This document shows, piece by piece, positions 6,252-18,061 of a stretch of DNA of 32,851 nt. The stretch covers positions 1 to 32,851 of the forward strand of contig JAPCJS010000005.1 of NCBI GenBank assembly GCA_027886825.1, written 5' to 3'. This DNA comes from Nitrososphaerota archaeon (GTDB lineage Archaea > Thermoproteota > Nitrososphaeria > Nitrososphaerales > Gagatemarchaeaceae). A model generated the notes under the pieces. That model was not told where the DNA came from, did no database searches, and saw nothing but the letters and a program-made list of their open reading frames with translations. Every line of letters begins with the position of its first letter. The first letter of the stretch is position 1. Position numbers and translations under genes: made by a program.

Positions 6252-8342
6252 TCACACCGGACTCGGTCTGAACCGGAAGAGGAGCAGCGAGTTGCCGATC
6301 ACGGTGACGGAGCTGATCGCCATCGCACCGGCCGCGAGGAAAGGCAGGACGTTGTAGACCTGGACCCCCAGGATGGGAACCAGCGCCCCGGCGGCGACTG
6401 GGATCAGGACCACGTTGTAGGCGAAGGCCCAGAAGAGGTTCTCCTTTATCTTCGAAAGGGTCTTCCGGCTGAGCTGGATGGCCACGGCCACGTTCTGCAG
6501 GTCGTCCTTGATCAGCACTATCTGCCCCGTCTCCCTCGCTATGTCGGTCCCGCTGCCGATCGCGATCCCGATGTCTGCCTTGGCCAGGGCGGGTGCATCG
6601 TTGATGCCGTCACCCACCATGGCGACCACTTTCCCCTGACTCTGCAGAGACCCTATCTTCTCCTCCTTCTCCCGGGGAAGCAGGCCTGCGACGAACTCGG
6701 TGATGCCGATCTTCTGGGCAATGGCCATCGCCGTACGCGGGCTGTCACCTGTCAGCATCACAACCCGGATCCCCATCCTCCCCAGGGCGTCTACGGCAGG
6801 CTTTGCGGTTGGTTTCACCGTGTCCGCGACCGCAATGATGCCTACCACTATGCCCTCGGCGACCACGATCATGGTCGTCTTCCCTTCCTCTTCCAGCCGT
6901 GTCACGTCTGTCTCCACCGTGGACAGGTCTTCTATCCCATTCTCCTGCATGAGCCGTCTGTTTCCCAGCATGACCGCCCTGCCGTCCACCATCGCCCTGA
7001 CGCCCATCCCGCCCATCGCCTCGAAGCCGCGCGGGTCAGAGAGAACGATTGAACGGCTTGCCGCTTCATCGACAAGGGCCTCGCCAAGCGGATGTTCCGA
7101 ACCCTTCTCCGCCGAGGCAGCCAGGTGAAGGAGCTCCTCCGGAGCGATGATCCCGTTGGTGACCACATCCGTGACCGAGGGCTTTCCCATGGTCAGGGTG
7201 CCCGTCTTGTCGAAGACCACCACATCGACCCTCGCGGCGAGTTCCAGGTACTCGCCTCCCTTGATCAGGATCCCGCTCTGGGCTCCCTTGCTCGTCCCCA
7301 CCAGGAGCGCGGCGGGAGTAGCGACTCCCAGCGCACACGGACACGAGATCACCACGACCGAGACGAAGACGAGCACGGAGAAGGCAGGCCCGATGTGTCC
7401 CAGGTAGTACCAGGAGAGTGCCGCCAGCGTGGCGGCAGCGACAACGACAGGGACGAAGTACGAAGCGATCCTGTCGGCGAGCCTCTGTATCGGGGCCTTG
7501 CCGATCTGTGCCTCCTCCACGAGCCTGACTATCTGGGAGAGGGTCGTATCCTGACCCACCTTGTCCGCCCTGAGCTTCAAGAGGCCTGACCTGTTGATCG
7601 TCGCCCCTATCACCACGTCTCCCACGGATCTCTCGGCGGGGATGCCCTCGCCGGTCATCATCGATTCGTCGATGGCCGACCTGCCCTCGACGATTACCGC
7701 ATCGACGGGTATTCTCTCGCCGGGTCTGACGACAAGCAGGTCTCCGACCTTGATCCGCTCCACGGGTACGTCGACCTCGAGGTCGCCCTCGATCCTATGA
7801 GCTAGGGGGGGTTGAAGCTCTACGAGCTTCCTTAGAGCGGCGGAGGCCCGGCTCCTCGTCACGTGCTCCAGGAACCGACCTGCCAGGATCAGTGTGATTA
7901 TGATGGCCGAAGTGTCAAAGTAGACGCCCGACGATGGGAGCAACTCTGGCGCGAACGTGACTGCAGCAGAGTACGCCCACGCCGCCGAGGTGCCCAGTGC
8001 GATGAGGACGTCCATGTTGCCCATCCTGTTCTTGATGCTGTCGTAGGTCCCTTCGTAGAACCTCCACCCTATGACAAATTGGAGTGGGGTGTCGAGGGCA
8101 AAGAGGACATAGTCTGACGGCCGCGCCGGCAGGAGAGACGCATACGTGAAGAGCAGAATCGGCAGTGAGAGCAGCGTCGAAGCAAGGAGCTCAATCTTTA
8201 GCTTGCGGAGCTCTTTCTCTGGGGAGAGGAACTCGCGCATGCAGGACTCGCTGCAGAAGTAGTAGGTGACGCCGCGGACCTCGGCCTTGAGCTCCGCGGT
8301 GCTCTCGTCGACGAACATTCCGCAGATGGGGTCCTTCGCCAT
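6252..8342 (-). CDS. copA: Copper-translocating P1B-type ATPase with N-terminal YHS domain
   Basis: CPC motif (VVISCPCALGVATPAALLVG), DKTGTLTMGKP, MVGDGINDAPALAKADIGIAIGSG; TM7/TM8 YNVVLIP and MAISSVTVIGNSLLL fit Cu+ P1B-1. N-terminus DPICGMFVDE...YYFCSESCMREF is a YHS domain. Confidence 0.92.
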   Translation of the reverse strand: MAKDPICGMFVDESTAELKAEVRGVTYYFCSESCMREFLSPEKELRKLKIELLASTLLSLPILLFTYASLLPARPSDYVLFALDTPLQFVIGWRFYEGTYDSIKNRMGNMDVLIALGTSAAWAYSAAVTFAPELLPSSGVYFDTSAIIITLILAGRFLEHVTRSRASAALRKLVELQPPLAHRIEGDLEVDVPVERIKVGDLLVVRPGERIPVDAVIVEGRSAIDESMMTGEGIPAERSVGDVVIGATINRSGLLKLRADKVGQDTTLSQIVRLVEEAQIGKAPIQRLADRIASYFVPVVVAAATLAALSWYYLGHIGPAFSVLVFVSVVVISCPCALGVATPAALLVGTSKGAQSGILIKGGEYLELAARVDVVVFDKTGTLTMGKPSVTDVVTNGIIAPEELLHLAASAEKGSEHPLGEALVDEAASRSIVLSDPRGFEAMGGMGVRAMVDGRAVMLGNRRLMQENGIEDLSTVETDVTRLEEEGKTTMIVVAEGIVVGIIAVADTVKPTAKPAVDALGRMGIRVVMLTGDSPRTAMAIAQKIGITEFVAGLLPREKEEKIGSLQSQGKVVAMVGDGINDAPALAKADIGIAIGSGTDIARETGQIVLIKDDLQNVAVAIQLSRKTLSKIKENLFWAFAYNVVLIPVAAGALVPILGVQVYNVLPFLAAGAMAISSVTVIGNSLLLFRFRPSPV

Positions 8343-15428: not shown

Positions 15429-16082
15429 TTAGACAGCACCTTTGAGAATGTCAGGCTGATCCGTCTTGGGCGCACCTAACTTCGCCAGCCTCGACCCATA
15501 CTTGTCGAGGTAAGCCTTTCTGCACGTCTTGCAGCAGAAGTAGTAGTGGGAAGAAGCGACAGAGACGGTGTATGGCCTGCTACGCGTGACCTTCTCGGAG
15601 CAGTAATCGCATCTCAGGTTCATGGTCATCGTACTCGGGAGAAGGGCGGCAGACTCCTCCTTGACGACGGCGGTGATGATCTGGCTCGATGTCACATCAA
15701 CTCCTGGCTTTGCCAGCACGCCAAGGTTGAGGAAGGACTGAAGTCCCTGGGGGCTGTTCAGAGCGACCTTCAAAGTGATGCTCTGTCCGGTGGTCATGTA
15801 GACGTCCTCCACCTCGCGGAGCCGGGCCAGATCGCTCGCGACCTCCTCTGCGACCATGGAACTTACCTTCAGGGTCACGAGGGCGAGCACGTGAGGATTG
15901 ACTGAATCGACGGAAAGCACAGGCACGAACTTCATGATCAGGCCGGCCTTGGTCATCCTCGCTATCCGGGCGGAGACCGTGGGAGTCGTGAGCGAAGTCC
16001 TTCGTGCGATCTGCCTGAATGATGCCCTTCCATCTTCCATCAGGGCCTCAATTATCTTAACATCAATCGTATCTGGTTTCAA
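15429..16082 (-). CDS. Lrp/AsnC-family transcriptional regulator with C-terminal TRASH metal-binding domain (CopT-like)
   Basis: HTH KPDTIDVKIIEALMEDGRASFRQIARRTSLTTPTVSARIARMTKAGLI; C-terminal CDYCSEKVTRSRPYTVSVASSHYYFCCKTCRKAYLDKYG TRASH motif. TTG 16082 is preferred over ORF-track 16145 because the operator and TATA lie upstream of it. Confidence 0.85.
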   Translation of the reverse strand: MKPDTIDVKIIEALMEDGRASFRQIARRTSLTTPTVSARIARMTKAGLIMKFVPVLSVDSVNPHVLALVTLKVSSMVAEEVASDLARLREVEDVYMTTGQSITLKVALNSPQGLQSFLNLGVLAKPGVDVTSSQIITAVVKEESAALLPSTMTMNLRCDYCSEKVTRSRPYTVSVASSHYYFCCKTCRKAYLDKYGSRLAKLGAPKTDQPDILKGAV

Positions 16083-16117
16083 GGGTTGAAAGAAAGGAGG
16101 GCTTCCGGTAAAAAAGG

Positions 16118-16132
16118 CTTTACGTTCGTAAA
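16118..16132. promoter_or_regulatory. Putative autoregulatory operator of the TRASH-Lrp regulator
   Basis: TTTACGTTCGTAAA perfect 14-bp palindrome (16119-16132), preceded by C; 36 nt upstream of TTG 16082; same sequence class and spacing as 8379-8394. Confidence 0.7.
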
Positions 16133-16263
16133 AGATAATCAGCACCGGAACCTCATCCTATTCTCGAAGATCAGACGGTGCAGGGTAAGAAGGTAGAAGA
16201 GCAGAAAGGTAAGCAGCGAGATGCTAACGGAAGTATATGAACTCTGATTGGTAAAAGAAGGAG

Positions 16264-16384
16264 TGCGGTCGCCGGGATTTGAACCCGGGTTACAAGCTTT
16301 CCTCTTTTCGGCCAATTGGACGAAAAATGGAGGGCTTATGTCCTAGACCAGATTGTCCTCACATATGATCTGGACGACGACCGC
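16264..16384 (-). tRNA. tRNA-Gly(TCC), two predicted introns (16353-16369 in D-loop; 16299-16327 at 37/38)
   Basis: Acceptor GCGGTCG/CGACCGC, T-arm CCGGG-TTCAAAT-CCCGG, D-stem GTCC/GGAC, anticodon stem TAAGC/GCTTG, spliced loop CCTCCAA, discriminator A, CCA not encoded. Mature length 75 nt after removing 17+29 nt. Confidence 0.88.
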
Positions 16385-16630
16385 TTTCGCATGCACCCTG
16401 ATTCGCCCCTTTTTATTTTTAATAATGAAATGATATCAGATGAACATCTTACACAGGCGTAGCGAACCCAACACATAGCTCAACTACATCGGTTTACTGC
16501 TCAACAGGCTACTTGGAGAATATGACGTCCTCATGAGTCGAACTTGATGCAACAGACAAATTCAATATAGCTATAAATATTGCATTTTGTATTTAAACAC
16601 CTATATAGTGATTATAATTGTTACATCAGT

Positions 16631-17068
16631 ATGTCAAACGTACAACAAGCACAGATTAAGAACAACAAGGGAGAGCTTATCGGAGAGCTTCGTGGAAAGT
16701 CCGTCACTACGACGATCAAAGAGATAACGCCCTTTGGCGTGAGGATATCAAACAACGGCACCGGCCAGTTCACCGGCAAGTACACTGCGTCTGTGATGGA
16801 CACGGTCAACGTATCTCTCAACAGAGATGGTACGACCCAATATGAGACGAAGTCCATCCAGAACACGATGGAGGGAGACTTTGTAATCGTAAACTCCACA
16901 GGCCATGGAAAGTCCACGGGCCCCACGACCCAGGAGTTTGAAGGAGAAGTCGCCTTCATGACCCAGTCTCAGAAGCTTGCGTGGCTCAACACGACCAAGG
17001 GCTGGATCGAGGGTACGACGAACAACGCAACCGGCGAATACCAGGCAAAGATCTACGCTCAGAAGTAG
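16631..17068 (+). CDS. Small protein of unknown function (145 aa), beta-rich with Gly repeats
   Basis: MSNVQQAQIKNNKGELIGELRGKSV...; TATA-like CTATATAG (16601-16608) about 25 nt upstream of ATG 16631, so the ORF-track start at 16580 is likely too early. Confidence 0.8.
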   Translation: MSNVQQAQIKNNKGELIGELRGKSVTTTIKEITPFGVRISNNGTGQFTGKYTASVMDTVNVSLNRDGTTQYETKSIQNTMEGDFVIVNSTGHGKSTGPTTQEFEGEVAFMTQSQKLAWLNTTKGWIEGTTNNATGEYQAKIYAQK

Positions 17069-17368: not shown

Positions 17369-18061
17369 CTATGAACTGGAAGAACGATGCCCAACCGCCT
17401 TCTCCGTCTCATAGACCAGTCGTGCGGCCACCACATGAGCATCCAGAGCATTTGCATCGATCCGCACAAGCTTCTCAAGGGCCTTTGTCGTCTCCGGAGT
17501 GAAGTGCCCCTTCGGGAACCCTCCCACCAGCACCGCAGGGTTCTTGGCACCGACCAGCTGGATCGCCAGGTCCTCGAGCTTCATAGGGTTCCCCTGCACG
17601 GAGAGCCCTATCGCGGGGTCCGAGCCTATGCGGCTCAAGAGCCGGGGGACGGACTCTGCATGGAAGGTGATCAGGCCCGAGCCCGGCTTCTCATACAGAG
17701 TCTGTTGCATGAGGTCCCGGAACCTGAAATAGCTTTTCGGAGGCCTCGTCTGCTCCTTGAACTCCAGCACCAGATCGTCGCGCGTGTGGATGTAGACCTT
17801 GGCCCCGGCCTGCTGATACAGCGGGGTGCTCGTGATGCTGAGGAGCGTCAGGTGGACTAGGTCTGGCCGGCCCCTCTTGTAATCCTCCTTCAGCCTGAGC
17901 ATCGCCGCGTGATGGATGCTCCTGTCCAGAAGTATCCGGGACGGTTCGAGGTCCCTCCGCCTCGCGTCGTTCCTGACCGAGGCGTGCCTCGAGATCTCTC
18001 CCGGGACGAGCTCGAGGGCGGCCTCGGCGATGATGAGGTTCAGCACCACGTTCGAGGACAT
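17369..18061 (-). CDS. nep1: 16S rRNA pseudouridine N1-methyltransferase Nep1 (EMG1, SPOUT family)
   Basis: AALELVP, LDRSIHHAAMLRL, RGRPDLVHLTLLSITSTPLYQQ, VYIHTRDD, AVLVGGFPKGHF motifs. Confidence 0.95.
   Translation of the reverse strand: MSSNVVLNLIIAEAALELVPGEISRHASVRNDARRRDLEPSRILLDRSIHHAAMLRLKEDYKRGRPDLVHLTLLSITSTPLYQQAGAKVYIHTRDDLVLEFKEQTRPPKSYFRFRDLMQQTLYEKPGSGLITFHAESVPRLLSRIGSDPAIGLSVQGNPMKLEDLAIQLVGAKNPAVLVGGFPKGHFTPETTKALEKLVRIDANALDAHVVAARLVYETEKAVGHRSSSS

Follow-up and report, generated by a model that had tools for sequence, protein, structure and literature searches.

A tRNA-Gly(UCC) gene with a canonical intron and a putative relaxed D-loop intron in a Gagatemarchaeaceae genome

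The window, that is, the whole stretch of 32,851 nt that was analyzed, carries on its minus strand what is very probably a functional tRNA-Gly(UCC) gene, seemingly present in one copy, with two introns: a bulge-helix-bulge (BHB) intron at 37/38 and a D-loop intron of the HBh' type at 15/16. Both would be spliced by the endonuclease EndA and the exons ligated by RtcB. In the draft assembly (2.4 Mb, 204 contigs, 90.8% complete), the window corresponds to contig C187; the genome falls within the genus of Ca. Gagatemarchaeum. The Gagatemarchaeaceae, formerly known as group I.1c Thaumarchaeota, are abundant in acidic soils (PMC10640624).

Gene anatomy and spliced product

An earlier note, made from the letters of the sequence, had proposed a tRNA-Gly(TCC) gene with these two introns. 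We reproduced all its coordinates and the pairings of both introns, which give the following features:

16384 to 16264, minus strand: tRNA-Gly(UCC) gene, 121 nt including discriminator A73; CCA not encoded
16370..16384, minus strand: exon 1, with acceptor 5' strand GCGGTCG, TC, D-stem GTCC, A14 and G15
16353..16369, minus strand: predicted intron A, 17 nt, in the D-loop at 15/16 (after G15), ATCATATGTGAGGACAA, forming a relaxed HBh' motif with D-stem GTCC
16328..16352, minus strand: exon 2, with D-loop TCTGGTCTA, D-stem GGAC, A26, anticodon stem TAAGC and CC-TCC-A
16331-16329, minus strand: anticodon TCC, from ARAGORN tRNA-Gly(tcc) on the spliced sequence
16299..16327, minus strand: predicted intron B, 29 nt, at the canonical 37/38 site, strict BHB, TTTTTCGTCCAATTGGCCGAAAAGAGGAA
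16264..16298, minus strand: exon 3, with A38, anticodon stem GCTTG, variable loop, T-arm CCGGGTTCAAATCCCGG, acceptor CGACCGC and A73
16410..16424, minus strand: A/T-rich stretch AAAAATAAAAAGGGGYGAATC upstream of the tRNA gene, likely a TATA-like promoter element by function

In the minus-strand reading, the stems are GCGGTCG/CGACCGC (acceptor), GTCC/GGAC (D) and TAAGC/GCTTG (anticodon). When both introns were removed, ARAGORN returned a cloverleaf with anticodon TCC, tRNA-Gly(tcc), and removal of either intron alone gave no tRNA-Gly. In the unspliced window, no tRNA was found by ARAGORN nor by Rfam at its gathering score, the Rfam tRNA model reaching 14.3 bits on the unspliced gene, below the threshold.

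Relatives' genes were collected by similarity search, by an order-wide pattern search and from 40 fetched stretches, and were aligned to a mature tRNA. The pattern matched 28 stretches in a named collection, from which those with bacterial titles were left out as chance matches or mis-binned contigs; several of the order-wide matches were not tRNA genes on inspection. The matches in the named collection also showed that PLUF01000020.1 (Candidatus Gagatemarchaeum stordalenia bog_1369) carries the same gene; the gene is likewise present in the same-genus genome G001, and its sequence is identical at these two loci. The predicted mature tRNA of the window is identical to the spliced products of three relatives (L033, L036, and L037). 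In a further relative (L049/L100, genome G010) the gene is uninterrupted, GTCCAG-TCTGG being read directly, and it differs from the predicted mature tRNA at 3 positions only, alignment nt 6, 31, and 45. Exon 1 is thus alike in interrupted and uninterrupted homologues except at nt 6, and the acceptor and T-arm of exon 3 are identical or near identical among relatives. Together with ARAGORN, the intron-bearing and intron-free relatives bear out the two introns, their borders and the anticodon.

U33 is near-universal in tRNAs. Nucleotide 33 of this gene is a C (window 16332, anticodon loop CCTCCAA), and C33 is retained in most relatives' tRNA-Gly(UCC) genes, interrupted or not, while G046 has T33.

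We considered that the gene might be a decayed pseudogene, with tRNA-Gly(UCC) supplied by another gene, as could be the case if a second copy were missing from a draft of 204 contigs. This is extremely unlikely: all stems are intact, the exons are identical to those of relatives, and the upstream region is conserved with L033, the nearest relative, which has the A/T-rich stretch in the same place. Moreover, the rival tRNA-Gly(TCC) copy that the earlier note had named as the sign of a pseudogene was not found by BLAST, Rfam or a T-loop pattern (which misses other T-loop sequences) in this 90.8%-complete genome, the only further tRNA-Gly being Gly(CCC).

Splicing motifs and inserts in relatives

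Intron B presents an outer helix TAAGC/GCTTG (5 bp), a central helix CCTC/GAGG (4 bp) and an inner helix TTTTCG/CGAAAA (6 bp), with two bulges of 3 nt each (CA^T and AA^A). With its 4-bp central helix, two 3-nt bulges, helices on both sides and position 37/38, it is a strict archaeal BHB intron, as had been claimed. It is absent or different in relatives, e.g., L036 and L049.

In intron A, the intronic GGAC can pair with the 5' D-stem strand GTCC to give the central helix, and TCA/TGA forms the inner hairpin, so that an exon strand, a bulge and an inner helix are present and the outer helix is missing. The lack of an outer helix to close the 3' bulge makes this a relaxed HBh' motif. The predicted cuts are AG^A and AA^T: on either side three nucleotides stay unpaired, and the bond cut would be the one that joins the second to the third.

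Intron A is missing in L049/L100, and relatives carry other inserts at the same place. Across the tRNA-Gly genes of relatives, we counted 32 different inserts between nt 15 and 16, with lengths of 16-66 nt. In all but one of them (31/32), a GGA occupies the sixth to fourth nt upstream of the 3' border, where it can pair with TCC of the D-stem; the fourth central pair is standard in 17/32 and otherwise mostly G-A. The inner helix begins exactly one nt into the intron and stops exactly at GGA. Its first, second and third pairs are standard in 32, 31, and 29 of the 32 inserts, and they covary, with both sides changing between inserts (TA, CG, GC, and AT types). The mean length is 4.1 bp vs 0.6 in shuffles, which ignore relatedness, and sliding the register by one base lowers the counts of standard inner pairs. 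With putative cuts at AG^N and NN^Y, this pattern is the signature of a splicing motif, as judged from sequence comparison. The same site and same geometry in many relatives place the gene and its predicted inserts far beyond chance.

We tallied intron sites by hand in those genomes of the family for which a UCC gene had been recovered. Inserts at 15/16 were present in 24 genomes, at 19/20 in four (G003, G008, G016, and G029) and near 24/25 in four (G009, G018, G031, and G033); four others (G010, G012, G028, and G153) had no D-arm insert. The 15/16 inserts also occur in two further families of the order (f9 and f12) and in tRNA-Gly(GCC)-like genes (L110 and L055). Some genes have three introns (L123 and L106); L123 (G004:C51), a tRNA-Gly(UCC) gene of the same genus, has two of its three in the D-arm (15/16 and about 25/26). 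A broader reading, which we offer tentatively and hold to be rather improbable as a whole, is that the tRNA-Gly D-arm is a lasting intron hot spot in the order (15/16, 19/20, and about 24/25), that the 15/16 intron imitates GGAC, the partner strand in the D-stem, that introns may move between sites or isoacceptors and that the unspliced D-arm may toggle between folds in the genus.

Folding of the unspliced D region

In our folding analysis, the unspliced D region of the window gene reaches its lowest energy as an extended D-hairpin built with the exonic GGAC (-11.9 kcal/mol), compared to -5.0 kcal/mol for the HBh' fold. The extended hairpin is also the minimum-energy fold in L033. It would suit a tRNA in which the D-loop insert is retained, the mature molecule having a D-hairpin extended as GTCC-AGATCA / TGGTCT-A-GGAC. 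We regard such retention as very unlikely. The four intron positions of the extension can pair in 20, 24, 25, and 8 of the 32 inserts, compared to the first three inner pairs of the HBh' fold, which are kept almost throughout and covary. In addition, insert length ranges from 16 to 66 nt, L049 lacks the insert, and G18-G19, the nucleotides in contact with the T-loop, would be pushed out of place by a D-arm of this shape. The retained extended D-arm was rejected on its poor conservation among relatives, and the conserved geometry of the 15/16 inserts supports a relaxed HBh' splicing motif, as first put forward for intron A, rather than a retained insert.

Since the window gene and L033 both have two mutually exclusive folds, the D region might also switch between the HBh' fold and the extended D-hairpin and so regulate splicing and the supply of tRNA-Gly(UCC) in the genus. 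Conservation of the second fold is limited to a few genomes, and we hold the switch, and with it any regulation, to be highly improbable.

Under the preferred reading of a spliced D-loop intron, the claim that the intronic GGAC pairs in advance with the D-stem stands in part: the central GGA pairing is kept across relatives, but it does not belong to the lowest-energy fold in the window gene. Formation of the intronic GTCC/GGAC pairing may therefore require cotranscriptional folding or the help of EndA. When only the 5' part of the window gene, up to the end of the intron, was folded, GTCC/GGAC was kept with a shorter inner helix; in 22/32 inserts, this part folds with the whole motif. The HBh' hairpin would be complete before the exonic GGAC is transcribed, and cotranscriptional folding could thus favor HBh'. 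After cleavage and ligation, the D-stem would form using the exonic GGAC 22-25.

Splicing machinery, genome context and precedents

Two genes of the EndA family were found, on C175 and C25. The first subunit aligns nearly end to end with solved EndA chains (3p1z_B, 2cv8_A, and 2zyz_B) and contains the motifs GTDFAVY, IDHAP and RKQF, which provide the catalytic Tyr/His/Lys. Its extra loop has K40-P41-K42 opposite K-P-R of 3p1z_B, and the EndA specificity loop is described as a lysine, then P/V, then K/R (PMC12397907). The second subunit is without the HAP (His) motif. Separate alpha-like (catalytic) and beta-like (structural) subunits with a K-P-K loop point to an (alpha-beta)2 enzyme with the crenarchaea-specific loop, in line with the assignment of Thaumarchaeota enzymes to alpha2-beta2 EndA (PMC4090602). 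The EndA class, which the earlier note had wished to see checked, is thus the broad-specificity kind as predicted from the genes, from which heterotetramer assembly and activity are also predicted. Only (alpha-beta)2 and epsilon2 EndAs are reported to remove relaxed introns efficiently (PMC6379350). The genome has one RtcB ligase. A transcript of the tRNA gene would then be cut at both introns by this two-subunit EndA with its crenarchaeal-type specificity loop, and RtcB would join the exons.

Unusually placed interruptions are also apparent in further tRNAs of this genome. In a tRNA-Lys(TTT)-like gene (L186, G000:C135:57207-57296 and upstream), one apparent D-loop insert follows GTAGCTTAG and a second lies before the T-arm; a tRNA-Gln(TTG)-like gene (L182, G000:C124) is interrupted near nt 7/8, and a tRNA-Glu(TTC)-like gene (L174, G000:C77) after the D-arm. 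In the window, a 162-aa ORF with no Pfam match (16580-17068, plus strand) lies between the tRNA and an EMG1/NEP1 gene (17369-18061, minus strand), and in several relatives the tRNA directly follows the EMG1-like end. The window also encodes an Lrp/AsnC-type regulator with a C-terminal TRASH metal-binding domain (15429-16145, minus strand) and a likely heavy-metal P-type ATPase (6252-8342, minus strand).

Introns in the D-arm, tRNAs with several introns and relaxed motifs have all been described in archaea before. tRNAscan-SE 2.0 listed 107 noncanonical introns in genomes of Thaumarchaeota, the same phylum (PMC8450103), and Caldiarchaeum, a neighboring lineage, has D-arm introns and multi-intron tRNAs (PMC3293823), giving precedents both for tRNAs with more than one intron and for introns in the D-arm. 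Sulfolobus tokodaii tRNA-Glu(UUC)/(CUC) and Aeropyrum pernix tRNA-Thr likewise have short BHB-type D-arm introns, each border falling after the second bulge residue and before the third, and those of S. tokodaii tRNA-Glu are cut by the cognate EndA (PMC4307357); these are other isoacceptors in another lineage. Relaxed hBH/HBh' motifs, with the same HBh' geometry as intron A, are cut by (alpha-beta)2 EndA with the crenarchaea-specific loop (PMC6379350, PMC12397907), and the genes of this genome encode the same kind of separate subunits and K-P-[K/R] loop. In open-access papers, we found no description of introns at 15/16 in tRNA-Gly(UCC) from the group I.1c family, nor of one D-arm site conserved across three families with other D-arm sites in some relatives.

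The comparison records a D-loop intron site that has persisted in soil Thaumarchaeota, with intron sequences that kept changing. General tRNA finders miss such genes, so that the tRNA sets of such genomes are easily undercounted. From the 32 naturally occurring versions of a relaxed splicing motif, one can read how much variation the splicing enzyme has to accept.
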